Source of the DNA: Oscillospiraceae bacterium
GTDB lineage: Bacteria > Bacillota > Clostridia > Oscillospirales > Ruminococcaceae
Direction: 5' to 3'
Assembly (NCBI GenBank): GCA_021203065.1
Contig: JAJQBX010000032.1
Location: 1 to 64,000 of the forward strand
DNA length: 64,000 bases
In this document: positions 2,793-18,884 of the stretch, one piece after another
Numbering within the stretch: position 1 is the first letter of the stretch
How the letters are laid out: each line of letters starts with the position of its first letter
Position numbers and translations under genes: made by a program
The notes under the pieces: model-generated
Databases searched by the model: none
What the model was told of the DNA's origin: nothing
The model's input: only the letters and a program-made list of their open reading frames with translations

Positions 2793-4631
2793 TTACGCCA
2801 CTTCCTCAAACTGACTGTTATAAAGCTCCGCATAGAAGCCGCCTTGTTTGAGGAGCTCCTCGTGCGTGCCTTGTTCGACAATGTCGCCGCCCCGCATGAC
2901 GAGGATTATGTCGGCATTCCTGATGGTCGAGAGACGGTGAGCTATAACAAAGCTTGTGCGTCCGGAGGTGAGCTTATCCATAGCCTGCTGGGTGATCATT
3001 TCAGTCTTGGTGTCGACGCTCGAGGTCGCTTCATCCAAGATAAGCATCGGGCTGTTCTGAATCATCGCCCTTGCAATGGTCATCAGCTGCTTCTGACCGG
3101 CGGAAATCGCAGTGTTGTCGCTCAGGACTGAGTCATAGCCGTTTGGCAACGCCTTGATGAAGTTGTGGATTCCGCAAGCCTTGCAAGCCTCTTTCATCTG
3201 TTCGTCGGTGACGCCCTCGGTGTTGTAGAGAAGATTTTCCCTGACAGTTCCTTCAAAGAGCCATGTGTCCTGCAAAACCATTCCGAACTGGTCGTGGACG
3301 TTGCTTCTTGGGACATCGCTCGTCGGTACTCCGTCGATAAGAATCTCTCCTCCGGTGGGCTCGAAGAAGCGCATCAGGAGGTTGACCATAGTCGTCTTGC
3401 CGGCACCTGTGGGACCGACGATTGCCACTTTCTGACCCGGTCTGACTTTCACGCTGAAGCCGTGGATAATCTCCTTTTCGGGAGCGTTCGGATAGGCGAA
3501 CTTAACGTTTCTGAACTCAACTTCGCCCCTGACATTCTCAATCTTTGCGGGTTTTGAAGATTCGTCTTCCATCTCTTCCTCAGCCAAGAATTCAAACACT
3601 CTTTCCGAAGCCGCCGCACAGGACTGAACCTGAGTCATAGCCTGAGAAATCTGGCGAAGAGGGGACTCGAAGAGCCTTGTATAGATCAGGAAAGCGGTGA
3701 TAACTCCGAAGCTGATTCTTCCGTCGATAATGAGTGCCGCACCGACAACACAGACCGCAACATAGCTGAAATTGCCGATGAAAGTCATAATCGGCTGCAT
3801 GAGCCCGGACAAAAACTGCGAGCGGAAGTTGGCGTTCTTGACCGCCTTGTTCATGGATGTGAATGTGTCTTTGACCTCGCCCTCAGCGTTAAGAATCCTG
3901 ATGACATCGTGACCGGTGTACATCTCTTCGATGTAGCCGTTGAGAATGCCCAAGTTTTCCTGCCTTGCAGTGAAGTATTTCTGCGAGTGGCTCATGATTA
4001 CCACCATGAAAACCATACCGACAATAGTCGCAAGAACGGTAGTAGTAGCCATAATGGCGTTGGTGTAGTACATCATGATGAGGCATCCGATGAACTGCGC
4101 AATAGCGGTTACGAGATTCGAAAGGCTGTTTGACATAGCCTGACCTATCATGTCGACGTCATTCGTCATTCTCGAAAGAACGTCGCCTGCGGCATTGCCC
4201 GAGAAGTACTTCAAGGGAAGCCGGTTGATCTTACTGCTGATGTCGCCACGGAGACGTTTTGAAGTTCTCTGCGTGACCGTCTGCATGATATAGTGCTGTA
4301 AAAAGCTGAACAGTGCGCTTGCAAGATAGATTCCCAGAAGCAGAAGCGCAACGTTTCTGACTCCGTCCATATCTATTGAGGTTGTAAGACCGTCATAGAT
4401 ATAATCCGTTAGTCTGCTTATCTGATTCGGTCCGATAATTGTCAAGACCGCACCTGCGGCGGCGAGAACGAGGGCAAATGCTATGATTCCCGTCTGACTC
4501 CTTATATACTTGAGAAGCCCAAGGAGTGCGCCCTTCATGTCCTTGGCTTTACCGCCAGACATTCCACGTCCTCCGGGTCCTCTGCCCATTGGTCTGCCCG
4601 TGGGTCTTCTGTTTGTTTCAGGCATATTCAA
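2793..4631 (-). CDS. ABC exporter half-transporter, catalytic subunit
   Basis: The 612-residue protein joins six transmembrane helices (about 45-340) to a nucleotide-binding domain. Walker A GPTGAGKTT, Walker B LILDEATSSVD with the catalytic Glu, and the H-loop IAHRLST are intact. The signature motif is divergent, SAGQKQ in place of SGGQ. The partner encoded just upstream (8-base gap) has a proper SGGQ but a degenerate Walker B and H-loop, so the pair should form a heterodimer with one active and one degenerate ATP site, as in LmrCD, TmrAB or TM287/288 (family knowledge). The Gly/Arg/Pro-rich N-terminus (first 30 residues) is unusual. Likely a multidrug or lipid exporter; substrate unknown. 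Confidence 0.88.
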   Translation of the reverse strand: MNMPETNRRPTGRPMGRGPGGRGMSGGKAKDMKGALLGLLKYIRSQTGIIAFALVLAAAGAVLTIIGPNQISRLTDYIYDGLTTSIDMDGVRNVALLLLGIYLASALFSFLQHYIMQTVTQRTSKRLRGDISSKINRLPLKYFSGNAAGDVLSRMTNDVDMIGQAMSNSLSNLVTAIAQFIGCLIMMYYTNAIMATTTVLATIVGMVFMVVIMSHSQKYFTARQENLGILNGYIEEMYTGHDVIRILNAEGEVKDTFTSMNKAVKNANFRSQFLSGLMQPIMTFIGNFSYVAVCVVGAALIIDGRISFGVITAFLIYTRLFESPLRQISQAMTQVQSCAAASERVFEFLAEEEMEDESSKPAKIENVRGEVEFRNVKFAYPNAPEKEIIHGFSVKVRPGQKVAIVGPTGAGKTTMVNLLMRFFEPTGGEILIDGVPTSDVPRSNVHDQFGMVLQDTWLFEGTVRENLLYNTEGVTDEQMKEACKACGIHNFIKALPNGYDSVLSDNTAISAGQKQLMTIARAMIQNSPMLILDEATSSVDTKTEMITQQAMDKLTSGRTSFVIAHRLSTIRNADIILVMRGGDIVEQGTHEELLKQGGFYAELYNSQFEEVA

Positions 4632-4639
4632 GCACCTCC

Positions 4640-6436
4640 TTATTCATTCACAGCAAGCTCTTCTTCCGAGAGCTGCGAAAGCGCAATCTGCTGATAAACG
4701 GTACAATTCTTCATGAGTTCGTCGTGAGTGCCGATGCCGGCTACTTCGCCGTTGTCGAGAACAACAATCTTGTCGGCATGGCGGATGGTTCCGATTCTCT
4801 GCGCCACGATGAGGCAGGTTGTATCTTTCAAGTCAGTCTTGATTCTCTGACGTAATGCCTTATCTGTCTTATAGTCGAGAGCCGAGAACGAATCGTCGAA
4901 GATGAGAATTTCCGGCTTTCCGGCAACCGCCCTTGCGATGGAAAGACGCTGCTTCTGACCGCCTGAGACGTTCGAGCCGCCCTGAGAAATCTGGCTGTTG
5001 ACATCGTCATCCATAGCGTGAACGAAGTCGGAAGCCTGAGCTATGTCCATGGCGTTTTCCATTTCCTCATAGGTTATGTTGTTTCTGGTTGAGCCGAACT
5101 TAAGGTTGCCCTCAACTGTGTTGGCAAAGAGAGTCGCTTTCTGGGGAATATAGCCGACTTTCTTATAAAGTGTTTCGAAATCGTATCTTGAAATCTCTTT
5201 TCCGTCGAGTAAAACCGTTCCCGAAGTGGCGTCATAAAGCCTTGCGGCAAGACCACCAAGGGTAGATTTTCCTGAACCGGTAGCACCGATAAACGCAACA
5301 GTCTCGCCTTTCTTGGCAGAGAATGAAATGTGCTTGAGGCAATCCTCCGAAGCATCGGGATAGCGGAAAGAAACGTCCTTGAATTCTATTGTGCCGGTCT
5401 CGGTGGAATCGGTTTCACTGCCCTCTTTGACGGCAATGTCCGAATCGAGAACCTCGTTGATTCTCTGGGCAGAAACCTGTGCACGGGGCATCAGCATGAA
5501 TATCATCAGAAGCATCACAAACGACATGATGACGTAAAGAGCATAAGAGCTGAACGAAACCACTTCTCCGAGCATTGTTGAACGCTCCGAAATCGCAGTC
5601 GCAATCTCTGCGGCAGTTCCACTCAGGGGAACCTCAATATTGTTTATAAGAATTGCTCCTACATAGTAGATAGCCACGCTAACTCCGCTCTGCACAAACA
5701 TCATGATAGGGGAGAGAACCGCCATACCACGACCGGTGAAGAGCTGTGTTTTCATAAGGTTTGTATTTGCTGTGTCGAATTTATCCTCCTGATACTTTTC
5801 GGCGTTGAAAGCCCTGACAACCCTGATGCCATTTAGATTCTCTTCCGTAATTCTGTTGACGTCGTCAATCTGCTTCTGGACAATCCTGAATTTCGGAATC
5901 ATAATTGCAAGAAGTACTATGAGTGATCCAACAACGATTACAACTGCCGAGGCTACAACAACCGAGAGCTCCCAGCTCTTGCCGACTATCTTTATGATAG
6001 CCCAGATAGCCATGATGGGCGCACGGATAAGCATCTGAAGACCCATCGAAATAATCATCTGGATCTGTGTTATGTCGTTTGTGGTACGTGTGATGAGGCT
6101 TGCGGTCGAGAACCTTTTGATTTCGCCACTGCCGAAAGCGGTGACCTTGTCAAAGAGCTTTGCTCTGACGTCGTAAGAAAAGTCCGCCGCAATCATAGCG
6201 GCTAAATATCCGACTATAACTGTCAGAAGCGCACTGCACAAAGCACAGGCGAGCATCTTGCCGCCTGCCGCAAAATACTGCGATAGCTCGGTTACTTCAC
6301 TGCTGATCAAAACTGTTATCTCTGCAGTGTAATCGGGCAGACGCAGATCAAAATATACCTGACCGCAAACAAGCAGCACGCACAGAAGTGCGAGCCACCT
6401 GTCCTTGGTCTTCATATTGCTGAAAATATGAAGCAT
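4640..6436 (-). CDS. ABC exporter half-transporter, degenerate-site subunit
   Basis: A 598-residue half-transporter with six membrane helices and a C-terminal ATPase domain. Walker A is GATGSGKST and the signature SGGQKQR, but Walker B reads LIFDDSFSALD (Asp instead of the catalytic Glu) and the H-loop reads VAQRIGT (Gln instead of His). These changes mark the degenerate site of heterodimeric exporters. AAGGAGG lies 10 bases before the ATG. The gene is 41 bases after the ABC-2 permease gene and 8 before its partner, consistent with one operon from the TetR-type operator at 9483. Confidence 0.88.
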   Translation of the reverse strand: MLHIFSNMKTKDRWLALLCVLLVCGQVYFDLRLPDYTAEITVLISSEVTELSQYFAAGGKMLACALCSALLTVIVGYLAAMIAADFSYDVRAKLFDKVTAFGSGEIKRFSTASLITRTTNDITQIQMIISMGLQMLIRAPIMAIWAIIKIVGKSWELSVVVASAVVIVVGSLIVLLAIMIPKFRIVQKQIDDVNRITEENLNGIRVVRAFNAEKYQEDKFDTANTNLMKTQLFTGRGMAVLSPIMMFVQSGVSVAIYYVGAILINNIEVPLSGTAAEIATAISERSTMLGEVVSFSSYALYVIMSFVMLLMIFMLMPRAQVSAQRINEVLDSDIAVKEGSETDSTETGTIEFKDVSFRYPDASEDCLKHISFSAKKGETVAFIGATGSGKSTLGGLAARLYDATSGTVLLDGKEISRYDFETLYKKVGYIPQKATLFANTVEGNLKFGSTRNNITYEEMENAMDIAQASDFVHAMDDDVNSQISQGGSNVSGGQKQRLSIARAVAGKPEILIFDDSFSALDYKTDKALRQRIKTDLKDTTCLIVAQRIGTIRHADKIVVLDNGEVAGIGTHDELMKNCTVYQQIALSQLSEEELAVNE

Positions 6437-6477: not shown

Positions 6478-7659
6478 TTACAACGGTAAATCCTTCTTCT
6501 GGAATCTTACTGCGCCAATGGCGTAGCAGACTATAGCTATACAAACCAAAGCTATAAGCTTCGGAACGAATGCATAATCAACTGCTCCCGAACCCACTGT
6601 TCCGAGTGCATCGACATCAAAAAGCCCGACAATAGTCAGATTGTTGAAAACTCCGAGCATTTCCGCTCCCATTCCCATGCTGACCATCGTATCAGATCCG
6701 AACATTCCGAGCAGTGAGCAGAGGAAGAACCAGACATTGAGTCCTCCTCCCAAGGCAAGAGCGTTCTTACTGAGGTTGAATACACAGCTTGCAAGGTAGC
6801 AGATGCTTGCCATTGCTTCGGCTAAGAGATAAATTCCGCCATAGAGAGCTAAGAATTTCACTACATCCACTTCACCGGTGAATGCTCTTGTCGCCAGAAG
6901 CCTTACTATCAGCCCACACCCGACCATCACAAGCGGCGTGATAATCATATACACCATCTGAGTGATGACCACGGCACTTCTCTTTGTTGGGGTCGAGAGT
7001 ATACAAGCCATCGAGCCCTTGTCAACCTGATCGACAACCAAGGCGTTTCCTGCGAAGATGATGAAGAGAATGATAGGCAGTAAGCACATGATTGTGAAGT
7101 ACATCTGGTTGAGCATCGCCGAGGTGTCCATCTCGGTCATGGTGGTGAGCAAGTCAGAAGACATTCCCATCATCTCAAACATGTTGGTCATCATTGTGCT
7201 GACATCCAGAGTATTGCCTGTGAAAACGCCCTCAGTGGCACCCAAAGCATAAACATACTCGAAGTTCTCGATATAGACGTCAAGTCCTATATCCGATTCA
7301 GAAAGAAGCTCAGCCGATTCTGCGAACTTCTCGACGGATAAATCCAAGTCCTCCGATTGTGCCGACATCATTTCAAAGATGGTTTCGTACATGCTTTGGT
7401 CGTCGGTGGTGGAAAAGTCTTCATAGCTGAGCTCTGTTCCCGCCATCTCGTTATATGCCGCCAGAACGTACAGATGGCTGTAGAAATCGGTCTGAGCGTC
7501 GGTGTAGTCGGTCGATTCTGTTCCGGCGATAAGGTTTCCGGCATATGTCGTGACCACCGTCATCAGGCACAGAACCACCGTACAGGCGATAAGAAGAACC
7601 CTGTTTGCACGTAAGCTCTGTTTGAACAGCGGCACGGAAAATACTTTTGTTACTTTCAT
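6478..7659 (-). CDS. ABC-2 type permease
   Basis: A 393-residue membrane protein with a first helix near residues 18-42, a long extracytoplasmic segment rich in Asp, Glu, Ser and Thr (about 45-175), then a block of five helices to the C-terminus (MYFTIMCLLPIILFIIFAGNAL onward). This is the ABC-2 permease layout. Its start overlaps the stop of the upstream ATPase gene by 4 bases, so it presumably works with one or both of the two ATPases encoded upstream in exporting a drug or peptide. Substrate unknown. Confidence 0.82.
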   Translation of the reverse strand: MKVTKVFSVPLFKQSLRANRVLLIACTVVLCLMTVVTTYAGNLIAGTESTDYTDAQTDFYSHLYVLAAYNEMAGTELSYEDFSTTDDQSMYETIFEMMSAQSEDLDLSVEKFAESAELLSESDIGLDVYIENFEYVYALGATEGVFTGNTLDVSTMMTNMFEMMGMSSDLLTTMTEMDTSAMLNQMYFTIMCLLPIILFIIFAGNALVVDQVDKGSMACILSTPTKRSAVVITQMVYMIITPLVMVGCGLIVRLLATRAFTGEVDVVKFLALYGGIYLLAEAMASICYLASCVFNLSKNALALGGGLNVWFFLCSLLGMFGSDTMVSMGMGAEMLGVFNNLTIVGLFDVDALGTVGSGAVDYAFVPKLIALVCIAIVCYAIGAVRFQKKDLPL

Positions 7660-8555
7660 TTCTTTTTCTCCTCTTCACTGTAGATATTCATAAAGTATTG
7701 CTCCAAGTTTTCGTGATTCTCGTCTATTGAGACGACTGGCAGGTTGCCAATTGCTTTGAACATCCTGTCCGTTTCGGATGCAAGTATGCTCAAACTCGCT
7801 TCACTGCCATTAACTTTAGCTTCCGGAATAAGCCCTGCGAATTTCTCCGCTGCAGTGCGGTCGCCGAAGACTATTCTATAGTTCCTCGGCGTCCCGTGCC
7901 GCAGCTCAGAAAGGCTCAAGATGCTTTCAATTTTACCGTTACCAATAATGGCAACCCTGTCGCAGACATCCTCGATCTCCTCGAAGATATGGCTCGACAT
8001 GAAAATGGTTCTGCCCTTTTGCTTCTCTTCACGGACAAGCTCCAAGAACGTCTCCCTCATCAGCGGGTCAAGACCGGTTGTCGGCTCATCCATGATGAGA
8101 ATCTCCTTGTCGCCCATGAGAGCCGCAACGATGGCGGTTTTCTGCTTCATGCCCTTGCTCATCCGCTTTAAGTTCGCCGACGGGTCGAGCCCGAGCTTAT
8201 CTATGAGATAGTTCATATAGGTGAAATCTTTAACGCCCAAGAACTCGGCTTGCACTCTGAAGAAATCTGTTCCGGTCTTTACATCCGGAAAAGCGATTTC
8301 GCCCGGAATATAGCTGACGTTTTTCATTACTTCGGGAGCATGATTCCAAGGATTGAGACCGTTTACTGTCACTTCTCCCGAATCTGGCTTCAGAAAGCCC
8401 ATCATGTGACGGATGGTGGTGGTTTTTCCTGACCCGTTAGTGCCGAGGTATCCGAAAACCTCGCCCTTTTGTATATCGAGCGATATATCGAACAGACCAC
8501 GGTTATATCCATAGTCTTTGGTGAGGTTTCGTACCGAGATAATACTTTCGCTCAT
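7656..8555 (-). CDS. ABC transporter ATP-binding protein (second of two)
   Basis: A 299-residue ATPase with Walker A GTNGSGKTTT, signature region MSKGMKQK (a common variant in ABC-2 export ATPases), Walker B LIMDEPTTGLDP and an SSHIFEEIE H-loop. The last 90 residues form the DrrA-like C-terminal extension. It overlaps the neighbours on both sides by 4 bases (ATGA junctions), so it is translationally coupled to the paralogous ATPase upstream and the permease downstream. The two ATPases probably form a heterodimer on the one permease, or the permease may dimerise. Confidence 0.88.
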   Translation of the reverse strand: MSESIISVRNLTKDYGYNRGLFDISLDIQKGEVFGYLGTNGSGKTTTIRHMMGFLKPDSGEVTVNGLNPWNHAPEVMKNVSYIPGEIAFPDVKTGTDFFRVQAEFLGVKDFTYMNYLIDKLGLDPSANLKRMSKGMKQKTAIVAALMGDKEILIMDEPTTGLDPLMRETFLELVREEKQKGRTIFMSSHIFEEIEDVCDRVAIIGNGKIESILSLSELRHGTPRNYRIVFGDRTAAEKFAGLIPEAKVNGSEASLSILASETDRMFKAIGNLPVVSIDENHENLEQYFMNIYSEEEKKK

Positions 8556-9466
8556 CTGCTCACCCCCTCAAAATGATGACCTGTGTCGTAGAAGCTCATG
8601 AAGTAGTCCTCCAAGGTGAAAGGAATCTCAACAAAGTCGGCGACGTTGTAATCGCCAAGACACCCTGTCAGCTCTCCAACCCTATTCGACTCAATCTGAA
8701 CACGGGCTCTCAGCTTGCCGTGGTTCTTTGAAGTAAACCTGAACGGCTTTTCTATAAAGCTGAGATAGGACTGTTCGTCCCTGAATGTGACACGGTAGAT
8801 TCTGTCGTGGCTCGCCTTGAGCTCATCCGACTTGAATTCTGATGCAATCTTGCCGTCACGGATTATAGCGATCCTGTCGCAGGAGGCGTCAACCTCGTGG
8901 AAAATATGGGAGGAGAGGAAGATGGTCTTGCCCCGTTCTTTTTCCTCCTTGACGAAGTCGATAAACGTCTCCTGCATGACGGGATCCAATCCGGAGGTTG
9001 GTTCGTCCAGAATAAGAATATCCGGGTCGTGCATGAAAGCCGTAACGACTGCAAGCTTCCTCTTGACTCCAAGGCTCATCCGCTTGATGCTGATGTCCGG
9101 GTCGAGGTCGAATTTGTCGAGCAGCATTTTAAGGTAGTCGTCGTTTTTTGTGTGGCGCATGCCCTCCATCATCTTAAGGAAGTCCGTTCCCGAAAGCCCC
9201 TGAGGAAGAGTGACCTCTCCCGGAAGATAGCCTACGGTGTTTTTAAGCTCAGCTGAGTGCTCCCAGCTGTCCTTGCCTGAAATGGAGGTCTTGCCCTCCT
9301 GAGGCTTTGAAAAGCCCATTAAATGTCGTATAGTAGTCGTCTTCCCGGCACCGTTAGGTCCCAAGAAGCCATAGCATTCGCCTTTTTTAACCTGAATAGA
9401 CACATCAAACACACCACGACCGTGACCGTAGTCTTTTGTGAGATGGTCCACAGAAATTACTGGCAT
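8552..9466 (-). CDS. ABC transporter ATP-binding protein (first of two)
   Basis: A 304-residue ATPase with Walker A GPNGAGKTTT, signature MSLGVKRK, Walker B LILDEPTSGLDP and an SSHIFHEVD H-loop. It is the first gene of the five-gene efflux operon: AAGGAGG precedes the ATG by 6-7 bases, and the promoter at 9512-9539 with a TetR-type operator over its start site is immediately upstream. Paralogous to the next gene. Likely role: energising export of a toxic compound sensed by the TetR protein encoded at 13272. Confidence 0.88.
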   Translation of the reverse strand: MPVISVDHLTKDYGHGRGVFDVSIQVKKGECYGFLGPNGAGKTTTIRHLMGFSKPQEGKTSISGKDSWEHSAELKNTVGYLPGEVTLPQGLSGTDFLKMMEGMRHTKNDDYLKMLLDKFDLDPDISIKRMSLGVKRKLAVVTAFMHDPDILILDEPTSGLDPVMQETFIDFVKEEKERGKTIFLSSHIFHEVDASCDRIAIIRDGKIASEFKSDELKASHDRIYRVTFRDEQSYLSFIEKPFRFTSKNHGKLRARVQIESNRVGELTGCLGDYNVADFVEIPFTLEDYFMSFYDTGHHFEGVSR

Positions 9467-9482
9467 ATAATTCCTCCTTGTT

Positions 9483-9566
9483 ATTATCCAACAACCTGTT
9501 GTATAATAAATATTATACTCAGTACAGATGAGTTATCAACCCTCAATTTTTCATGAGGTGTCGGAT
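9483..9566 (-). promoter_or_regulatory. TetR-type operator/promoter repeat, copy A (efflux operon)
   Basis: On the minus strand TTGATA (9534-9539), 16 bases, TATAAT (9512-9517) form the promoter of the efflux operon. The predicted start site at about 9505 falls at the edge of the imperfect palindrome ATCCAACAACCTGTTGTAT (9486-9504; 8-bp arms with one mismatch around ACC), a size and position typical of TetR-family operators. A further inverted half-site TGTCGGAT is at 9559-9566, and a small CCTCA/TGAGG hairpin lies between. The 84 bases align without gaps to 13166-13249 at about 83% identity (counted by hand). Confidence 0.75.
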
Positions 9567-9584: not shown

Positions 9585-10562
9585 TCACGAAAAGTATTTG
9601 CAGAATTCCTTGTAGTTATAGTCCTTTTCCGGTCTGCACATGACAGCGAAATCGATAGAATCAAACAGCATTTCAGCCAGCTTTCCAGCATAGGAAAAGC
9701 TCATAATCGTCTTATAGAACAGTCTGGATACGAGATGGGCATCATTTCCATAAACTCCGCAGCCGAATGCGCCCAGAATCAGGTGACGATATTTTTCAGC
9801 TGCGGCAACCGTCAGCATTCCACGGATTCTCGTTTCGAGCATGCTTTCATACTCATCTTGTGTCATTCCCTCAAGCCCCATGCGAATCATCGGGGCGGCG
9901 CAGGACATAACCGAAATCTGAAACGGCTCGGCGAGTGTTTCAGAAGAGCTGTCTTTTATAACCTCGACATTGTGAGACATGATAATTCCATGTGAACCCA
10001 TGTGGGTTTTGAGTGCGTTGTTATAATCGTAATACTTTTTTGCATTCTCACTTTCGAGCGACCAAAGAAGAGTCGATCGCCTTGAAAGGTCTTCCTCCTG
10101 TGCACTTGCACCTTTTCTGGTGTGACCTCCCGGCTCAGTTGCGCTTGCAAGGTTCAGAACAAGAACTTTCTGAGAGAAATCGCCCGATTTTTTCATTTCT
10201 ATGAATCTTCTCTTCGCCAGAACGAGTGCATCCTCATTTTCACAGCTGAAAATCCAGTTGATTTCACGTTCAGTTGACAATTCCGTAACCGGAGCTGATT
10301 TTTCGATAGATTCAATATCTTCCGGAAGATAGACCATTGATTCTCTCATTTCATCCGCAGAGAAGCTAAGGTTTATACTCCTGCCGTTCTTCTCATAAGA
10401 GCCTTTTTCGAGAATACTGAGTGTGTCGTCGAGAATTCTGATATTTTCAAGTCTGCGCTTCTCCTTTTCGGCGTCACGAGCCTTGATTTCCGATTCAGTC
10501 AAGCCTTTGTTTTCGGCTTCCCGCATTTTCTGGGCAAGCTCTTTCATTCCCTCTTCGGTCAT
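9585..10562 (-). CDS. PARG-type macrodomain, predicted poly/mono-ADP-ribose hydrolase (TIGR02452-like)
   Basis: A 325-residue protein of the bacterial PARG-like macrodomain group. The segment EPGGHTRKGASAQEEDL (about 143-159) matches the PARG signature, a Gly-rich loop followed by QEE, the second Glu being the catalytic acid in characterised bacterial PARGs; the usual third Gly is His here. A second loop GAFGCGVYGND (near 263-273) fits the phosphate-binding loop of macrodomains. The first 55 residues are charged and helical. Its start overlaps the stop of the upstream sirtuin gene (TAATG), so the ADP-ribosylation writer and eraser are probably translationally coupled. Predicted job: removing ADP-ribose placed by the two sirtuins (inference). 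Confidence 0.82.
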   Translation of the reverse strand: MTEEGMKELAQKMREAENKGLTESEIKARDAEKEKRRLENIRILDDTLSILEKGSYEKNGRSINLSFSADEMRESMVYLPEDIESIEKSAPVTELSTEREINWIFSCENEDALVLAKRRFIEMKKSGDFSQKVLVLNLASATEPGGHTRKGASAQEEDLSRRSTLLWSLESENAKKYYDYNNALKTHMGSHGIIMSHNVEVIKDSSSETLAEPFQISVMSCAAPMIRMGLEGMTQDEYESMLETRIRGMLTVAAAEKYRHLILGAFGCGVYGNDAHLVSRLFYKTIMSFSYAGKLAEMLFDSIDFAVMCRPEKDYNYKEFCKYFS

Positions 10563-11269
10563 TATCTTTTCTCCTCTTCTTTCAGCTTCCGGAAAACGTC
10601 GTCCGACGGTTCCCGGATGTTCAGATCCGCAACCCTGTCAAATGCAGTCCTCCCGGGATTTATCTGAACTATAACAGCATCGCTTCTCCGGTAGCCCCAG
10701 TATGCGCTGCCGTAGTAGCCGTTTGTGCCGATGACAATTATAAGGTCGGCTTTTGAAATCCATTTCTGTGCATCTCTGACTCCGTCGTCCCACAGCCCGA
10801 TGTGGCTGTAAAGCTCCCACGGGAGAATGGTCCCGCCACAGGAATCGCACTTTGGTAGTTCATCCCGATTCCATATTTCATAGCCGTCAAAGTGCTTGCC
10901 GCAATCCTTGCAGCGGTTGATCTGGAAGCTGCCCTGAATCTCGGCGACATTTTGTGAGCCTGCTATCGTGTGCATGCAGTCCTCATTGGTGGTGATTATC
11001 CCGATGAGCCTGCCATCACGTTCCAGATCGGCAAGCGCATAGTGACTGAGGCTTGGCTTATAGTGGTGCATTGCCTTGACGTAGGATGTCAGAAATGACT
11101 CACTTTCAAAACCGCCTCCCGGACGGATCGCTCGGGAAAGCTGAGAGTATGTGACTCCTCCGCCGGAGACAGATATTCCAGCACCGGTTATTGCGACTAT
11201 ACTGTGGCTGTTGTCTACATAGTCAGCGAACTGCTTTATCTTGTCAAATGAATTCGATTTAGAGAACAT
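10562..11269 (-). CDS. Divergent Sir2-family protein, class-M-like (paralog 2)
   Basis: A 235-residue Sir2 protein with the Rossmann motif GAGIS (29-33), TTNED (93-97, usually TQNxD), zinc Cys pairs CKDC and CDSC (120, 123, 141, 144) and the late VIGTNG and QINPG motifs. The catalytic His of deacylase sirtuins is replaced by Gln in EIQGSF (Gln 112), and the SGIPDFR cofactor segment is not recognisable. His-to-Gln replacement is known in class M sirtuins (SirTM), which transfer ADP-ribose to proteins instead of deacylating them. The gene overlaps its paralog upstream by 11 bases and the PARG gene downstream by 1. Predicted protein ADP-ribosyltransferase; an inactive binding paralog is the alternative. 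Confidence 0.8.
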   Translation of the reverse strand: MFSKSNSFDKIKQFADYVDNSHSIVAITGAGISVSGGGVTYSQLSRAIRPGGGFESESFLTSYVKAMHHYKPSLSHYALADLERDGRLIGIITTNEDCMHTIAGSQNVAEIQGSFQINRCKDCGKHFDGYEIWNRDELPKCDSCGGTILPWELYSHIGLWDDGVRDAQKWISKADLIIVIGTNGYYGSAYWGYRRSDAVIVQINPGRTAFDRVADLNIREPSDDVFRKLKEEEKR

Positions 11270-12008
11270 TTCTGGGTCTCTCCCATTCGTCCATCACTTC
11301 GCCTAATACCTCTGCGGCATCGGCGTGGATATTCCAGTCGGCAATCTGATCGAGCTGAGTTTCCGACGGATTTATCTGGACGAGCCTTGTGCCTTTTCTC
11401 ATTTTCTTAAGATACTCATCGCTCCTAAAGCCGGTAGTGCCGATGATGATAACAAGATCCGCCTCCGAAATCATCTCGGAGGCTTTTGTCATGCTCTCTT
11501 TCGAGACCTGCTCAGCTATCTTGTTCTCCCGACAGAACATCGTCGGCATCAGGGGAGAGCCGCACTTCTCGCAGGTTGGAGTGTGTCCATGATTCCAGAT
11601 TTTGTAGCCAAAATGCCTTGTTCCGCAGTCTACACAGATATTATCCTGAAAGCTTCCCTGAAACTCAACGACGTTCTTTGAACCGGCTATAGTGTGCAGA
11701 CAGTCCATATTCTGAGTGACGATTCCATAGAGCAAACCACACTTTTCAAGAGTCGCAAGCTGCTTATGAACCTCACTCGGACCTTTTATAAATGTAGCGT
11801 CTAAAAACGAAGTCTTGACTATTCTGTAGAACTCATCAGGATTGCTTCTTACAAAAGAGGGCGAGAGAACCTGCCTTGAATTCATCAGCCCAACGCTCTG
11901 CTTGAGCCGCCTCATTCCATATAAATAGGAGATTCCTGCACCCGTTACTGCAACAGTCCTGTTACTGCCCTTCATATATTCTCTCAACTGTTCTGATTCG
12001 TATCTCAT
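11259..12008 (-). CDS. Divergent Sir2-family protein, class-M-like (paralog 1)
   Basis: A 249-residue paralog of the next gene: GAGIS at 23-27, the canonical TQNMDCLH at 98-105, EFQGSF at 115-120 with Gln 117 where deacylases have the catalytic His, and zinc Cys at 125, 128, 146 and 149. The PDFR segment is again missing. Keeping TQN makes it the more likely active member of the pair. The first helix YESEQLREYMKGSNRTVAVTGAG is typical of the family start. GGAGATG precedes the ATG. In known SirTM operons a macrodomain hydrolase is a partner, as here, but the lipoate ligase and GcvH-like target of those operons are not seen in this window. Confidence 0.82.
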   Translation of the reverse strand: MRYESEQLREYMKGSNRTVAVTGAGISYLYGMRRLKQSVGLMNSRQVLSPSFVRSNPDEFYRIVKTSFLDATFIKGPSEVHKQLATLEKCGLLYGIVTQNMDCLHTIAGSKNVVEFQGSFQDNICVDCGTRHFGYKIWNHGHTPTCEKCGSPLMPTMFCRENKIAEQVSKESMTKASEMISEADLVIIIGTTGFRSDEYLKKMRKGTRLVQINPSETQLDQIADWNIHADAAEVLGEVMDEWERPRNVL

Positions 12009-12122: not shown

Positions 12123-12797
12123 TTACTTCCAAGTGAAGTTTTCCTTTCCGGCACCAAGCTCAAAGAAATACTTGCTGATTCCAAGGTCTGAATCTGCAAA
12201 GGAAACATCCGGACAGGTCATTGAAACCTCGTTGCCAGAGCCTTTTATCACGAACTCTTGCCTGTTCATTCCGGTAGGAGCCAAAAGTGCCGCTTTAACT
12301 CCTGCTTTGAACCAGTCGGGCGCATCTCCCTCATAGGAAGAAACCTCGCTTGCGGATTTTGATTTGTGCGGAACCCCCTGCTCCATACCGTAGCCGACAG
12401 CTACTATTCCGGTGATTTTGCCGCCGTTTCCGACAATGGAGTTTTTCTTGGCGTTCTTGCGGCTGAACATTCCGCCAACCCACCATGTGTTAAGACCCAA
12501 AGTCTGCGCATAGAGCATGAGGTCAGCACTTGCATATCCAAGCTTCACTTCCGTATCTGACTTATCCGGACCAGCTAAAATCATGTAGTTGTTGACGTTC
12601 TTAGACATCGTAGCGGCTATAATAGACGGAAGAGCCTCCTTGTTGTCGGTTTTAAGCTGGATGTTCAGACCGTGCTTTGAATTGTTCTCAGAGATTCTTG
12701 TGCGGAGCTTTTCGACAATATCGGCAGGAATCGCCTTGTTCTCGTACTTCCTGACGGTGTGCCTTGCGTTCATTGCTTCTTGCATTGTCATTTCCAT
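12123..12797 (-). CDS. Nitroreductase-family flavoprotein
   Basis: A 224-residue protein of the FMN nitroreductase fold, in the subgroup with the first domain described as putative TM nitroreductase. It opens MQEAMNARHTVRKYENKAIP, the usual RHSVRxF phosphate-binding start, contains GYASADLMLYAQTLGLNTWWVGGMF in the middle, and has a second half with KAALLAPTGMNRQEF, typical of the duplicated arrangement. Likely an NAD(P)H-dependent reductase of quinones or nitro compounds. It is 29 bases after the Cys-cluster gene, in the operon started at the TetR-controlled promoter 13195-13222, which suggests a detoxification role. Confidence 0.82.
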   Translation of the reverse strand: MEMTMQEAMNARHTVRKYENKAIPADIVEKLRTRISENNSKHGLNIQLKTDNKEALPSIIAATMSKNVNNYMILAGPDKSDTEVKLGYASADLMLYAQTLGLNTWWVGGMFSRKNAKKNSIVGNGGKITGIVAVGYGMEQGVPHKSKSASEVSSYEGDAPDWFKAGVKAALLAPTGMNRQEFVIKGSGNEVSMTCPDVSFADSDLGISKYFFELGAGKENFTWK

Positions 12798-12826: not shown

Positions 12827-13114
12827 TCACAGCCGGAAGGTCGTCACATAAGGGCAATCCTCCGGCAAAGTGGTATTAAACAGTGCCGTATATAAAGTCA
12901 GTTTTCCGCAGTGGTTGCACTTCTTGAATCGCTCGTCATATACACGGCACAGGTTTGTACTTGTGTCTAGATACTCACAGGGGTTGTCATAATGGATGAT
13001 AACCTTGCCGTCGGAGTCAACAGAGCGGGTGTAACAGCATTTTCCGCAGCGAGTGCACAGGGAATCCCAGTCTTTTCGCCACTTGAACCACTCTTTTATG
13101 ATCCGGACGCTCAT
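12827..13114 (-). CDS. YkgJ/YcgN-type cysteine-cluster protein
   Basis: A 95-residue protein with the zinc/iron-chelating Cys cluster CTRCGKCC near the start, then C-x5-LC and CNHC motifs, as in the YkgJ-like UPF0153 families. ATG 13114 was chosen because AGGAGG lies about 9 bases upstream; a longer TTG start at 13177 would fall within the operator and has no ribosome site. First gene of the minus-strand operon controlled from 13166-13249. Biochemical role unknown; the metal site suggests metal binding or redox sensing. Confidence 0.78.
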   Translation of the reverse strand: MSVRIIKEWFKWRKDWDSLCTRCGKCCYTRSVDSDGKVIIHYDNPCEYLDTSTNLCRVYDERFKKCNHCGKLTLYTALFNTTLPEDCPYVTTFRL

Positions 13115-13160
13115 AACAGCCGCCCTCCTCTCCGACAAAAAAATTACGGGAAGATTTGTC

Positions 13161-13249
13161 TTGACATTATCCAACAACCTGTTGTATAATATATATTATA
13201 CTCCGCTATGATGAAATATCAACCCTCAATTTTTTTGAGAGTGTCGGAT
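13161..13249. promoter_or_regulatory. Divergent TetR-type operator/promoter, copy B
   Basis: Plus strand: TTGACA (13161-13166), 18 bases, TATAAT (13185-13190) drives the TetR gene, with the palindrome ATCCAACAACCTGTTGTAT (13169-13187) filling the spacer, a classical autorepression layout. Minus strand: TTGATA (13217-13222), 16 bases, TATAAT (13195-13200) drives the Cys-cluster/nitroreductase/sirtuin operon with the same palindrome at its start site. An inverted half-site TGTCGGAT (13242-13249) and a CTCAA/TTGAG hairpin (13225-13239) also match copy A at 9483-9566. Confidence 0.8.
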
Positions 13250-13271: not shown

Positions 13272-13856
13272 ATGAAGAAACAACCAGAAATCACGGAAAG
13301 GACAAGGCAGAAATTTGTGAATGCATTCTGGGAGCTTGCCCGAGCAAAACCGGTCTCAAAGATTGCAGTCAGTGAGCTGACCCGTCTTGCAGGCTACAAC
13401 CGCAGTACGTTTTATGAATACTTTCTCGACACCGACGACCTGCTCACCTATGTCGAAGATAAGCTTATAGAGGAAGTAGGGGAAGTTGCTAAGAAATCCA
13501 TGTCGAAAGACGAAGCTCCTACAGAATTCTTCCGGATGGTGTTTGCCGCCGTGAATGAGAAAATCTATATTTTGGTCGGTCCGAACGGCGACAGCAGCTT
13601 TTTGCCAAGAGTCAGAACCGAGCTTATTCCTCTCGCCTCACAATACCTCCCGATAAGACCGGACACCAAAAATTTCGATTATCTTGTTGCATTCGTCAAC
13701 TCAGCCATGTTCGGTCTCTTGGAGCATTGGCATGATAAAAACAAGGACATCAGCCCCGAAGAAATCAGCGAAATGATGCAGAGACTGGTGTTCGGAGGAG
13801 TCAGGGAATATATTGAGGACAGTGGACAGTGTTTACCTGTGAGCCAGCTCACATAA
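13272..13856 (+). CDS. TetR/AcrR-family transcriptional repressor
   Basis: A 194-residue protein with an N-terminal TetR helix-turn-helix: TRQKFVNAFWELARAKPVSKIAVSELTRLAGYNRSTFYEYF spans the whole DNA-binding domain (about 9-46), with RSTFYEYF as the usual recognition helix end. The C-terminal part is the family's variable ligand and dimerisation domain. GAGGCG is 8 bases before the ATG. Its promoter contains the palindrome also found in front of the efflux operon 9466-2793, so it most likely represses itself, the divergent sirtuin operon and the distant efflux operon. The inducer is unknown, probably an exported toxic compound. Confidence 0.88.
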   Translation: MKKQPEITERTRQKFVNAFWELARAKPVSKIAVSELTRLAGYNRSTFYEYFLDTDDLLTYVEDKLIEEVGEVAKKSMSKDEAPTEFFRMVFAAVNEKIYILVGPNGDSSFLPRVRTELIPLASQYLPIRPDTKNFDYLVAFVNSAMFGLLEHWHDKNKDISPEEISEMMQRLVFGGVREYIEDSGQCLPVSQLT

Positions 13857-15027: not shown

Positions 15028-15060
15028 CAAAAGCCGACGCTCATCACGTCGGCTTTTCTT
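15028..15060. terminator. Bidirectional terminator, GCCGACG type (copy 3)
   Basis: AAAAGCCGACG pairs with CGTCGGCTTTT around loop CTCATCA, with T-rich tracts on both sides. It serves the lipoprotein gene and the convergent Rrf2 gene, whose stop codon is at its edge. It is the reverse complement of the hairpin at 13896-13930 apart from minor end differences. Confidence 0.85.
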
Positions 15061-15470
15061 TAATCTTCATTCCTCATCAAATCCTGAATAGTAAACCCAT
15101 CCAGATATTCCGAAATCATCTTATCGAGCCCTTGCCACATCGGGTATGACCGGCATTCGTAGCGTCTTTCGCATTGCTCAACAGACTTGTCGACGCAGGA
15201 GACCGGGGCGAGTTCGCCATCGGTGAGCCTCAGGATTTCTCCGACGGTGCACTCGTCGGGGGAACGGCTCAGCTTGTAGCCGCCGCCTTTGCCTCTCTGA
15301 CCCTCCAGAACTCCGCCCGAAACAAGGCTCTTGACGATGGCTTCGAGGTATTTTTCAGAAAGATGCTGACCGTCGGCAATCTCCTGAAGCGGGATATATT
15401 CATCCGTCTGCCTTTCGGCTATATCAACAACTACTCTCAGGGCATATCTGCCCTTTGATGAGATAAACAT
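15060..15470 (-). CDS. Rrf2-family iron-sulfur cluster regulator (IscR/SufR-like)
   Basis: A 136-residue Rrf2 protein: winged helix with SSKGRYALR at the start, the LSEKYLEAIVKSL recognition helix and the RGKGGGYKLSR wing. Three Cys at 92, 100 and 106 (C-x7-C-x5-C) correspond to the Fe-S ligands of IscR, so DNA binding is probably switched by an iron-sulfur cluster. ATG 15470 has GGAG 8 bases upstream and is preferred to the GTG three codons earlier. It is divergent from the suf operon, so it presumably senses cluster supply and represses suf and itself. Confidence 0.88.
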   Translation of the reverse strand: MFISSKGRYALRVVVDIAERQTDEYIPLQEIADGQHLSEKYLEAIVKSLVSGGVLEGQRGKGGGYKLSRSPDECTVGEILRLTDGELAPVSCVDKSVEQCERRYECRSYPMWQGLDKMISEYLDGFTIQDLMRNED

Positions 15471-15493
15471 TGCGCTCACTCCAATCTTATTAT

Positions 15494-15522
15494 AGTATAC
15501 ACCAGTCGCAGATAAATTTCAA
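15494..15522 (-). promoter_or_regulatory. Promoter of the Rrf2 gene
   Basis: Minus strand TTGAAA (15517-15522), 17 bases, TATACT (15494-15499), followed by the Rrf2 ribosome site within 25 bases. The 50 bases between this and the suf promoter are the expected location of the regulator's operators. Confidence 0.6.
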
Positions 15523-15571
15523 GTCCCATCAAAAATCTTGATTTGTGAAGCTCAAAATGGGGCATATTCCC

Positions 15572-15600
15572 TTGACAAGAGCCCCCGGATGTGATACTAT
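15572..15600 (+). promoter_or_regulatory. Promoter of the suf operon
   Basis: Consensus TTGACA (15572-15577), 17 bases, TACTAT (15595-15600). It is the only strong promoter in the 190-base gap on the plus strand and points to sufC 63 bases downstream. Confidence 0.75.
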
Positions 15601-15606
15601 ATCTTT

Positions 15607-15630
15607 AACCCACCGCAAAGGTTGGTTTTT
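15607..15630 (+). other. Stem-loop with T-run at the 5' end of the suf transcript
   Basis: AACCCACC (15607-15614) pairs with GGTTGGTT (15620-15627) with one mismatch, loop GCAAA, and five Ts end the element. It begins at the predicted transcription start. It could be a 5' stabilising hairpin or a very early attenuator; being at position +1 makes the stabiliser reading more likely. Confidence 0.45.
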
Positions 15631-15662
15631 ATAATGTATATTTAAACGGAGTGTGAAATATA

Positions 15663-16415
15663 GTGTCAGCACTTTTGAAAGTGAATAATCTTAACGTCTC
15701 GATTGACGATAAACACATCCTGCATGATGTCAATTTGCAGATTAACGAGGGCGAAGCCCATGTTCTGATGGGACCCAACGGCGCAGGAAAGTCGACCCTC
15801 GGCTATGCCCTGATGGGTAATCCCCAGTATTCTATAGACTCGGGAAGTATAGTTTTCTCGGGAAATGATATAACATCTGAGTCCGCCGACAAAAGAGCGA
15901 AAGCCGGAATGTTCCTCTCGTTCCAGACACCTTTGGAAGTTCCGGGACTCACCGTCGAGAGCTTTTTAAGAAGTGCCCTCGAGCAGAGAACCGGCAAGCG
16001 TCTTAAGCTCTTTGATTTCAAGAAAAAGCTTGCCGCCGCAATGGAGCTTTTGCAGTTAGACCCGTCCTACGCCAAGAGGGATTTGAATGTTGGCTTTTCA
16101 GGCGGAGAGAAAAAGAAGACGGAAATTCTGCAGCTTCTCATGTTCCGCCCGAAGCTTGCAATACTCGATGAGACCGACTCCGGTCTTGATGTCGACGCGG
16201 TGCGGCTTGTCTCCAATGGAATCAAAAAATATCTTGAGGAGGAGAACGGCGCACTCCTCGTCATCACCCACTCAACAAGAATCCTCGATGCTTTCGATAT
16301 AGACAAAACCCACGTAATGGTCGACGGTCATATAGTTGCCGATGGCGACGCCTCCGTAGTTGACGACATAAACGAAAATGGCTATGAGAGATATATCGAA
16401 TTGGCAGGAAAGTGA
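15663..16415 (+). CDS. sufC: Fe-S cluster assembly ATPase SufC
   Basis: A 250-residue ABC-type ATPase of the SufBCD scaffold complex in the cytosol. Walker A is GPNGAGKST, the signature region is FSGGEKKK and Walker B is LAILDETDSGLDVDA, all diagnostic of SufC. It starts with GTG; GGAG is 11 bases upstream, a slightly long spacing, which may tune expression. First gene of sufCBDSU. SufC binds SufB and SufD and drives conformational changes needed to build the cluster. Confidence 0.95.
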   Translation: MSALLKVNNLNVSIDDKHILHDVNLQINEGEAHVLMGPNGAGKSTLGYALMGNPQYSIDSGSIVFSGNDITSESADKRAKAGMFLSFQTPLEVPGLTVESFLRSALEQRTGKRLKLFDFKKKLAAAMELLQLDPSYAKRDLNVGFSGGEKKKTEILQLLMFRPKLAILDETDSGLDVDAVRLVSNGIKKYLEEENGALLVITHSTRILDAFDIDKTHVMVDGHIVADGDASVVDDINENGYERYIELAGK

Positions 16416-16418
16416 GTC

Positions 16419-17828
16419 ATGATGAAAGAAAAAAGTCAGGTTGAGAATATCGACCGCAACATGTACGATTTCCGGAACGAGGATAGGGATAACTACAAGC
16501 TGAATGCCGGTCTCACAGAGGAAATTGTCGATAAAATTTCAAAAGAGAAGAACGACCCGGCATGGATGAACCTTTTCCGGTTGCAGTCTTTACAGATATA
16601 TAACAGCATGTCTGTCCCGAACTGGGGACCGCCGATTGACGGCTTGGACATGGACAACATCGTAACCTACGTAAGACCTAACACCAAGATGAGCGCAAAG
16701 TGGAGCGATGTACCGGATGAGATAAAGGACACATTCGAGCGTCTCGGAATCCCTCAGGCTGAAAGAAAGTCTTTGGCTGGCGTCGGAGCGCAGTACGATT
16801 CCGAGCTTGTCTACCATAATGTCCGTGAAGAGGTTGCCGCAATGGGCGTCGTCTACACCGACCTTGAAAGCGCAATGCACGGCGAATATGCCGACATGAT
16901 AAGAAGCCACTTCATGAAGCTCGTAAAGCCGAATGACCACAAGTTCGCCGCACTTCATGGCGCAGTCTGGTCTGGCGGCTCGTTCGTCTATGTCCCGCCA
17001 AAAGTCAAGGTTGAAATTCCGCTACAGTCATATTTCCGGCTGAACGCTCCCGGTGCCGGACAGTTTGAGCACACGCTTATCATCGTCGACGAGGGTGCAG
17101 ACCTCCACTTCATCGAGGGCTGCTCTGCTCCCAAGTATAACGTCGCTAATCTCCATGCCGGATGCGTTGAGCTTTTCGTCGGAAAGAATGCCCGCCTCAG
17201 GTATTCAACAATTGAAAACTGGTCGAAGAACATGTATAACCTCAACACCAAGCGTGCAACCGTCGAAGAGGGCGGCACTATGGAGTGGGTTTCCGGCTCA
17301 TTTGGCTCGCATGTCTCCTATCTATACCCGATGACAATCCTTAAGGGCAAGAATTCCCGTATGGAATTCACCGGAATCACATTCGCCGGCAAGGGTCAGA
17401 ACCTTGACACCGGTGCAAAGGTTGTCCACATCGGCGAAAATACATCCTCATATATCAACACAAAATCCATCTCGAAAGACGGCGGCATAAGCACATTCCG
17501 TAGCTCTGTTATCGTCGGAAAGAACGCCCACAAGAGCAAGGCGGCGGTTTCCTGCCAGTCTCTGATGCTCGACGACATTTCCCGTTCCGATACAATTCCG
17601 GCTATGGATATAAGAACCGGTGATGCTGATGTCGGACACGAAGCGAGAATTGGCAGAATCAGCGACGATGCGGTCTTCTACCTCATGTCCCGTGGCATTT
17701 CCGAGGAGGACGCAAGGGCGATGATTGTCGGAGGCTTTGCCGACAACGTTTCAAAGGAGCTTCCTCTTGAGTACGCCGTTGAGATGAATAACCTCATCCG
17801 CCTCGAGATGAAGGGCGCAATAGGCTAA
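16419..17828 (+). CDS. sufB: Fe-S cluster assembly scaffold SufB
   Basis: A 469-residue SufB, the usual length. Conserved SufB segments are visible, including YDSELVYHNVREE, PPKVKVEIPLQSYFR, the EGCSAPKY motif with a likely cluster or sulfur-transfer Cys, and the C-terminal EARIGRISDDAVFYLMSRGISEEDA. SufB receives sulfur from SufS/SufU and assembles the cluster with SufC and SufD. It starts 3 bases after sufC; two consecutive ATGs (16419 and 16422) are possible starts. Confidence 0.95.
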   Translation: MMKEKSQVENIDRNMYDFRNEDRDNYKLNAGLTEEIVDKISKEKNDPAWMNLFRLQSLQIYNSMSVPNWGPPIDGLDMDNIVTYVRPNTKMSAKWSDVPDEIKDTFERLGIPQAERKSLAGVGAQYDSELVYHNVREEVAAMGVVYTDLESAMHGEYADMIRSHFMKLVKPNDHKFAALHGAVWSGGSFVYVPPKVKVEIPLQSYFRLNAPGAGQFEHTLIIVDEGADLHFIEGCSAPKYNVANLHAGCVELFVGKNARLRYSTIENWSKNMYNLNTKRATVEEGGTMEWVSGSFGSHVSYLYPMTILKGKNSRMEFTGITFAGKGQNLDTGAKVVHIGENTSSYINTKSISKDGGISTFRSSVIVGKNAHKSKAAVSCQSLMLDDISRSDTIPAMDIRTGDADVGHEARIGRISDDAVFYLMSRGISEEDARAMIVGGFADNVSKELPLEYAVEMNNLIRLEMKGAIG

Positions 17829-17840
17829 GGAGGGGAAAGA

Positions 17841-18884
17841 ATGACAACTGAAAATACTATTCTGAATCCGCTCCCCGTGAGGACATGGAACAGCCTTAAG
17901 ATGAACGAGGCTAATTATTCAGGAGAAGTTCCTGCACTCAGCTGTGCCCCTGAAATAACAAAGCTTCCAGACAGCATGAAGCTCACTCACGATGAAGCCT
18001 TAACCGGCATCAGTTCTGCTGCTGGAGAGCTAAGCGAGCATCTCACCGGCGACTCAGTTCTCATAGAATCCGAAAGCGAAGCATCGCCGGCGGTTCTCAA
18101 TTATAATTTTGATGGCGGTAAGACTGCAAGGCTTTTTCTTAAAGCCAAAGAAAACGCCACTCTTCCGGTTTCAGTAATCATGACAGGCGAGGGCACAGCG
18201 GTTCTCGAAATCAAGATCCTTGCCGGAAAAGGCTCAAAAGTCGATCTGTCTGTAGTTCAGTCGGTTGGAGGTGAGTCCGATGTAATCACCGACATCGGCT
18301 GCACCTGCGAAGAGGGCGCAAGCTTCAATCTCACAAAACTTGAGCTTGGCGGCAAGAGTGAATATGTCGCAGTCTCAGTCGATTTAGCAGGCGAGCACAG
18401 CTCATTCTCAGCGAACGCCGGCTATCGTGTCAAGACAAACCAGAGCTTAGACATGAATTATGTCGTCCGCCACACCGGAAGAAAAACCGAATCGGATATA
18501 TTCGCTTCCGGAATTTTGGAGAACGACTCAACCAAGATTTTCCGTGGCACAATCGACCTCATCAAGGGCTGCGCCGGCGCAAAGGGAACTGAAAACGAGG
18601 ATATACTTCTCTTAGGCGACAATCAGATAAACCAGACAATTCCGCTTATCCTTTGCAATGAAGAGGACGTTGAGGGTAACCACGGAGCATCGATAGGCAG
18701 GCTTGATGACAATATCATCTTCTATCTCGGCTCACGTGGGATTTCTCCTGAGGCAGCTGAGGACATAATCGCTCATGCAAAGCTTGACGCCATAATTTCC
18801 CACATTCCGGACGGTGACGTCAGAACACTCGCTCACAGCCTCATTTCTGACGATTCAGACGGAGGCGAAGATGCGAAGCTATAA
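17841..18884 (+). CDS. sufD: Fe-S cluster assembly protein SufD
   Basis: A 347-residue SufD, with the SufB/SufD-type beta-helix core. The C-terminal segment EGNHGASIGRLDDNIIFYLGSRGISPEAAEDII matches the SufD signature, including the His-bearing GNHG stretch. It is paralogous to SufB and completes the SufBC2D complex. AGGAGGGG precedes the ATG. The end overlaps the sufS start by 14 bases. Confidence 0.92.
   Translation: MTTENTILNPLPVRTWNSLKMNEANYSGEVPALSCAPEITKLPDSMKLTHDEALTGISSAAGELSEHLTGDSVLIESESEASPAVLNYNFDGGKTARLFLKAKENATLPVSVIMTGEGTAVLEIKILAGKGSKVDLSVVQSVGGESDVITDIGCTCEEGASFNLTKLELGGKSEYVAVSVDLAGEHSSFSANAGYRVKTNQSLDMNYVVRHTGRKTESDIFASGILENDSTKIFRGTIDLIKGCAGAKGTENEDILLLGDNQINQTIPLILCNEEDVEGNHGASIGRLDDNIIFYLGSRGISPEAAEDIIAHAKLDAIISHIPDGDVRTLAHSLISDDSDGGEDAKL

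Follow-up and report, generated by a model that had tools for sequence, protein, structure and literature searches.

What could two sirtuins that have lost the catalytic histidine be doing beside a PARG-type macrodomain protein? The question is raised by three genes at 9585..12008 of a 64,000-nucleotide stretch from an Oscillospiraceae bacterium (contig JAJQBX010000032.1), the whole of which we call the window. Our analysis favours, at roughly even odds (a probability of about 0.5), a module for inducible and reversible ADP-ribosylation that belongs to a xenobiotic and redox stress regulon under TetR control. At its core are two Sir2-family genes and a gene for the PARG-type protein, with overlaps of 11 nt between sirA and sirB and 1 nt between sirB and the PARG-type gene:

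11259..12008, minus strand: sirA, Sir2-family protein of 249 amino acids with Gln117 for the catalytic His and a TQNMDC motif (open reading frame, Pfam, alignment)
10562..11269, minus strand: sirB, second Sir2-family protein, 235 amino acids, with Gln112 for the catalytic His and a TTNEDC motif (open reading frame, Pfam, alignment, model)
9585..10562, minus strand: PARG-type macrodomain protein (PF10021 / TIGR02452) of 325 amino acids with GGH-X7-QEE (profiles)

An earlier reading of the letters (the sequence-only reading) had proposed these three overlapping genes, and both the open reading frames and the profile scores agree with it: 82.6 bits for sirA and 69.1 bits for sirB with Pfam SIR2 (cut-off 24), and 93 bits with PARG_cat_microb (cut-off 23.5) and 155.6 bits with TIGR02452 (cut-off 50) for the third protein.

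Do the sirtuins look like enzymes, and of which kind? In alignments, EFQGS of sirA stands opposite ELHGN of Sir2Tm, and EIQGS of sirB opposite HLHGS of solved sirtuins. The Gln at the catalytic-His position occurs in 35 of 36 aligned cassette sirtuins, both window proteins included; the remaining one (L024:6717-7439) has Glu and retains the Asn, the Asp and the zinc Cys. Each of the 36 has the Asn and Asp of the active site, all four zinc Cys and the adenine-ribose Asn, with the active-site Asn standing for the catalytic Asn118 of class M sirtuins. The sequence-only reading was thus right about the Gln and the zinc Cys in both proteins, and also about the loss of the PDFR segment; the VVLYEE/FGE-type substrate loop of deacylases is gone as well. 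Transfer by class M sirtuins needs Asn118, Gln137 and Arg192, and changing the Gln to His abolishes it. Since the cassette retains equivalents of the first two of these three residues, SirA and SirB would likely carry out transfer dependent on nicotinamide adenine dinucleotide (NAD) to an acceptor.

That they are still deacylases which tolerate the His-to-Gln exchange, with the macrodomain protein clearing O-acyl-ADP-ribose, is highly improbable. The nearest profile is that of ordinary deacylase sirtuins, which are also the closest folds to the predicted structure of sirB, the only one of the two to be modelled; the two-domain sirtuin fold, a point on which the sequence-only reading had asked for a structure, is kept in it. 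No class M entry is among the best 50 fold matches listed for this model, which excludes nothing. Against deacylation stand the loss of PDFR and of the substrate loop, and the retention of Gln where the reaction needs His as its catalytic base. Class M sirtuins with Gln, moreover, have no deacylase activity, and cleavage of O-acyl-ADP-ribose is described for MacroD and TARG1 enzymes.

A further mark of the group is a Cys directly after the active-site Asp (Cys103 in sirA, Cys98 in sirB), found in all 36 cassette sirtuins, where ten of ten ordinary sirtuins compared have Gly and nine of ten class M sirtuins His. It is not strictly unique, as one ordinary sirtuin (L089) has Cys and a divergent cassette-like one (L064) His. 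This Cys is possibly a redox switch or a site of self-modification. Tyr135, Trp138, Tyr199 and Gln211 are likewise typical of the cassette.

Are these then class M sirtuins, to which the Gln had led the sequence-only reading to liken them? As kinship, the likeness finds no support. In the tree, the 15 sirA and sirB rows form a clade of their own (support 98/93), outside that of the eight class M rows (100/100). The cassette profile lies closer to ordinary sirtuins (E 1.6e-50) than to class M (E 4.7e-11), and class M sequences reach just 13-32 bits with it. The pyrophosphate motif GVGx[NT]TP of class M is missing, the cassette having IGTTGFRS or an IGTNGYYG-like stretch, and the alignment places no conserved Arg in the stretch opposite class M NLR, where Arg192 would be expected. 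Clade, motif and Arg together rule out class M membership and, with the Arg and the motif missing, transfer cannot be inferred by homology. The Gln may have arisen once, in an ancestor shared by the cassette clade and class M; one origin and two both stand, because the tree needs a single H/Q change and is unrooted. That count scored all 22 ordinary rows as H, the actual residues being His in 21 and Tyr in L109, a Sir2-family protein of a Miltoncostaea plasmid that is annotated as a deacetylase and has Ala at the active-site Asn. On another contig of the source genome (G000:C15 ~389275-390865; L035; L137 5276-6866), a class M sirtuin gene does lie next to one for a Zn-macrodomain protein, a pair missed by the sequence-only reading, so that cassette-type and class M-type systems coexist in it.

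How widespread is the arrangement, and is it maintained? A SirA scan of a collection of genome contigs, with further cassette sirtuins and PARG located by tblastn, yielded 27 loci, all in metagenome-assembled genomes and mostly from few projects, under the titles Oscillospiraceae, Ruminococcus, Lachnospiraceae, Erysipelotrichaceae and unplaced Clostridia or Bacillota. The sirtuin duplication recurs in 25 of them, and six (L014, L016, L017, L021, L024 and L028) hold three or four sirtuins, one L021 copy being broken. A PARG gene is present in 24; L019 and L029 end within sirB at the contig end, and at L020 the ~850 bases left on the contig contain no such gene. In a second survey, of whole genomes that may overlap the first collection, cassette-profile matches above 250 bits occurred in 4 of the 391 genomes from the class and in 3 of the 148 from the family, the source genome being counted in both; the next best matches, at 172 bits or less, were HG sirtuins among the rows inspected. 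PARG stands beside the sirtuins in five of the six genomes with matches above 250 bits, the cassette of G279 being split over two contigs, and TIGR02452 at E 1e-20 was found in 7 of 148 class genomes. The cassette is therefore rare and patchy, yet tightly linked, and the triplet is not confined to one strain.

Within seven close loci (21 pairs per gene), the median ratio of nonsynonymous to synonymous substitution rates (dN/dS) is 0.062 for sirA, 0.064 for sirB and 0.098 for PARG, with dS up to 2.9 and some pairs above 2, near saturation. The cassette genes are under purifying selection, and the conserved relatives in other genomes together with the low dN/dS speak against a chance observation. 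Among the close loci, the open frames and the dN/dS values led us to reject decay. Broken or cut copies occur among distant loci: L015 (a frame break in a sirtuin), L021, L029, L030 and one G416 copy. In that genome, nitroreductase and PARG frames are interrupted at L133 (G416:C128), and a flavodoxin-sirA-PARG copy has open frames at L134 (G416:C135).

This constraint bears on the view that the Gln sirtuins are non-catalytic sensors of NAD or ADP-ribose, the PARG-type protein handling a ligand or mark that originates elsewhere. The missing general base, PDFR, class M Arg and GVGx[NT]TP, and the duplication into divergent paralogues, would all fit a sensor, which we nevertheless consider doubtful: the active-site Asn, Asp and Gln are near-invariant under purifying selection, and the Gln in particular need not persist in a pure sensor. 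Nor do we find it at all probable that the sirtuins are NADases that deplete NAD in stress or defence, despite their retained NAD pocket and the occurrence of SIR2-fold NADases in phage defence. PADLOC (2023 library) has no match for the three proteins, which is inconclusive by itself; among 107 pattern stretches from a scan of viral contigs none is a relative; no match in the 73 plasmid records and 36 phage records that have one reaches 60% identity; and the named neighbours are redox, transport and regulatory genes. The scans of viral contigs and of plasmid and phage records also led us to reject phage or plasmid cargo.

What, then, is the third protein? It matches TIGR02452 and, within E 0.1, not the MacroD-type model NF003163, so that the sequence-only reading correctly chose a PARG-type over a MacroD-type partner. 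The PARG signature it saw holds in part: curated cut-offs and QEE place the protein in the family, while the strict GGG-X6-8-QEE does not apply, the third Gly of the loop being His in the window protein. QEE with the catalytic Glu is present in 18 of 18 cassette PARGs, in which the residue after GG is R (8), H (6), Q (3) or G (1); L119 has Ala. TIGR02452 proteins unlinked to the cassette read PGGG in six of seven cases and PGGE in the seventh. In a tree, the 23 cassette PARGs group together with support 100/97, apart from five unlinked proteins, whose long branches were flagged by the program. By its residues and branching the cassette PARG is a signature-deviant clade of its family rather than a textbook PARG, and as the eraser it seems to have become specialised alongside the sirtuins.

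What such a protein can cleave gives a clue to the linkage of the mark. MacroD-type enzymes cleave acyl esters (PMC7050489). A 2024 study reports that human, fly and Thermomonospora curvata PARG and the microbial PARG of F. johnsoniae remove tyrosine-linked ADP-ribose, and remarks that the Tyr activity of the two microbial PARGs could indicate such marks in bacteria, for which ADP-ribosylomics is lacking (PMC11541775).

As to the target, neither GcvH nor a lipoate ligase/LipB catalytic domain has a match in the whole genome, which is rated 100% complete; the controls rang in 13 of 14 genomes each. The absence noted by the sequence-only reading thus extends from the neighbourhood to the genome, both systems in it apparently lack access to the known class M target, and lipoyl-GcvH is an unlikely target. 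A PARP search of the genome gave no match, and its positive control rang nowhere, so that absence is not established. Among the papers listed in the literature searches, which leave most subscription journals outside their coverage, we recognised no report pairing sirtuins with TIGR02452/DUF2263; an earlier in silico mention is possible.

What might tie the cassette to stress? The unit probably runs past 9585..12008 in both directions, as far as 13856 at one end and into the ABC genes at the other:

13272..13856, plus strand: divergent TetR-family regulator (TetR_C_8 above cut-off, TetR_N below)
13222-13195, minus strand: promoter-like TTGATA-16-TATAAT just upstream of operator 1
13167..13188, minus strand: putative operator 1, TATACAACAGGTTGTTGGATAA, palindrome CAACA-GGT-TGTTG
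12827..13177, minus strand: YcgN-like cysteine-cluster protein, below NCBIfam and Pfam cut-offs
12123..12797, minus strand: TM1586-type nitroreductase-family protein, directly upstream of sirA
9539-9512, minus strand: promoter-like TTGATA-16-TATAAT of operator 2
9484..9505, minus strand: putative operator 2, identical to operator 1, before the ABC genes
8552..9466, minus strand: ABC ATPase, best NCBIfam model DrrA (sub-cut-off), first gene behind operator 2
7656..8555, minus strand: second ABC ATPase
6478..7659, minus strand: ABC-2 type permease (PF12679)
4640..6436, minus strand: ABC exporter half, best NCBIfam model MsbA (sub-cut-off), presumably on the same transcript
2793..4631, minus strand: ABC exporter half, best NCBIfam model MsbA (sub-cut-off), presumably on the same transcript

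For the YcgN-like gene, the ATG near 13114 behind GGAGAGGAGG would be a likelier start than the listed TTG, which overlaps the operator. Just past the proposed regulon, 15060-18884 holds a gene for an Rrf2 regulator together with SUF-type genes, which encode an ABC ATPase and two SufBD-core proteins.

The operator emerged when the gap that separates the operon from the TetR gene was aligned for the window and eight relatives, an alignment in which TTGATA-16-TATAAT is followed at once by the 22-nt element. Its two copies, 3.7 kb apart, are the only matches with up to three mismatches in the 2.36-Mb genome, and a reversed control gave none. One precedes the operon of YcgN-like, nitroreductase, sirA, sirB and PARG genes beside the divergent TetR, the other the ABC-transporter operon. 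The surroundings are repeated too, as a 90-nt promoter-operator unit, 82% identical between 9477-9566 and 13160-13249. Both sites are present in eight of nine close loci; at L010 the TetR-side site has a one-base gap. The repeat likely ties the two operons into one regulon, and TetR is predicted to bind both sites. A nitroreductase or flavodoxin lies within 6 kb in 20 of 28 loci (11 of 19 if the ten close loci count as one); for a TetR or Rrf2 gene the figure is 18 of 28. Neither the operator shared with the ABC genes nor the flavoprotein neighbours figured in the sequence-only reading. At the divergent G317 locus (L064 / L136), a deep-branching Gln sirtuin is accompanied by a MarR regulator and a TM1586-type nitroreductase, without PARG; redox neighbours in the absence of PARG suggest, weakly, that the redox link predates the PARG link.

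The same surroundings could suit sirtuins whose substrate for ADP-ribosylation is not a protein but a small toxic compound, the nitroreductase and the ABC transporters being their partners in a detoxification regulon. The operator common to the ABC genes and the adjoining nitroreductase and TetR genes would agree with this; a dedicated ADP-ribose eraser is hard to square with irreversible detoxification, and we regard the idea as quite unlikely.

Several points weigh against the reversible module as a whole. Its activity, target and linkage are predictions, and the third catalytic residue of class M, like its pyrophosphate motif, has no counterpart. One sirtuin (L024) has Glu in place of the Gln, L013 and L030 show no second sirtuin, and PARG is absent at L020 and at the G317 locus. 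The available sequence of 8 of the 28 loci contains no flavin enzyme. A plausible operator variant occurs in just 2 of 17 distant loci, near TetR with two mismatches in L017 and four in L022; of the 15 without, L023 and L026 have four-mismatch matches inside genes only and the other 13 none. Finally, PMC7050489 describes PARG as active between riboses and unable to cleave the terminal protein-ribose bond.

If the reversible module is nonetheless the correct reading, an inducer would release TetR from the two identical operators, so that the nitroreductase-sirtuin-PARG operon and the ABC-transporter operon would be made together. SirA and SirB would bind NAD as sirtuins do but, with Gln replacing the general-base His, would not deacylate lysine and would pass ADP-ribose on to an acceptor; removal of the mark would fall to the PARG-type protein. 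The acceptor would probably be a protein, and the most economical choice would be one that the regulon itself encodes or uses, for example a flavin enzyme; the extra sirtuin paralogues might serve different acceptors or work in pairs.

More tentatively, the locus could represent PARP-free ADP-ribosylation, written by a new clade of Gln sirtuins and erased by a dedicated PARG, with a mark that is Tyr-linked or a short ADP-ribose chain started by one sirtuin and extended by its paralogue. Such marks come into view because microbial PARGs cleave Tyr-linked ADP-ribose and ribose-ribose bonds and not the acyl esters of MacroD-type enzymes. Some bacteria have PARG but no PARP, bacterial poly(ADP-ribose) metabolism is unsettled, and a sirtuin has been floated as a possible source in Deinococcus (PMC6445106). 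The cassette would then offer a candidate for the missing writer in genomes with PARG and without PARP, and since its operon holds a gene of the PARG family that overlaps the gene of a candidate writer, the question becomes testable with three small proteins. Gln-for-His sirtuins would exist outside class M, and some Firmicutes, with paired unusual sirtuins and an enzyme of the ADP-ribose-stripping type apparently co-induced with efflux pumps and redox enzymes, might possess an unrecognised stress response based on reversible protein tagging.

How does the cassette compare with known systems? With Sir2Tm-type bacterial deacylases, its nearest relatives by profile and, for sirB, by fold, it shares the zinc site, the Asn, the Asp and the adenine-ribose Asn; it differs in lacking the catalytic His and PDFR and in its typical Cys after Asp, Tyr135, Trp138 and Gln211. 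Microbial PARG (PF10021, DUF2263, TIGR02452; Thermomonospora curvata PARG, 3sig) has the same family, QEE and GAFGCG..GND region, while the cassette PARG forms its own clade among the rows tested, in 17 of 18 cases has Arg, His or Gln where the third Gly would stand, and is linked to sirtuins rather than to PARP. The bacterial PARP and PARG systems of Herpetosiphon and C. difficile CD160 (PMC5966428) likewise have a candidate writer and a PARG-type eraser within one genome; here the candidate is the sirtuin pair, the PARP search having been one without a working positive control. Class M operons (Rack et al. 2015, PMC4518038; Ariza et al. 2024, PMC11490716) have in common with the cassette the Gln for His before Gly, the placing of a writer gene next to one with a macrodomain fold, an extended operon that includes flavin oxidoreductases, and a stress-response setting. 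They differ from it in that the cassette is a separate clade without GVGx[NT]TP or Arg192, usually with at least two sirtuins, and has a PARG-type protein and no GcvH-L/LplA2 where they have a MacroD-type Zn-macro protein with GcvH-L/LplA2. A sirtuin writer with a macrodomain eraser is thus already known; what the sequences would add is a new clade of sirtuins, an eraser from a different family and a candidate regulon.

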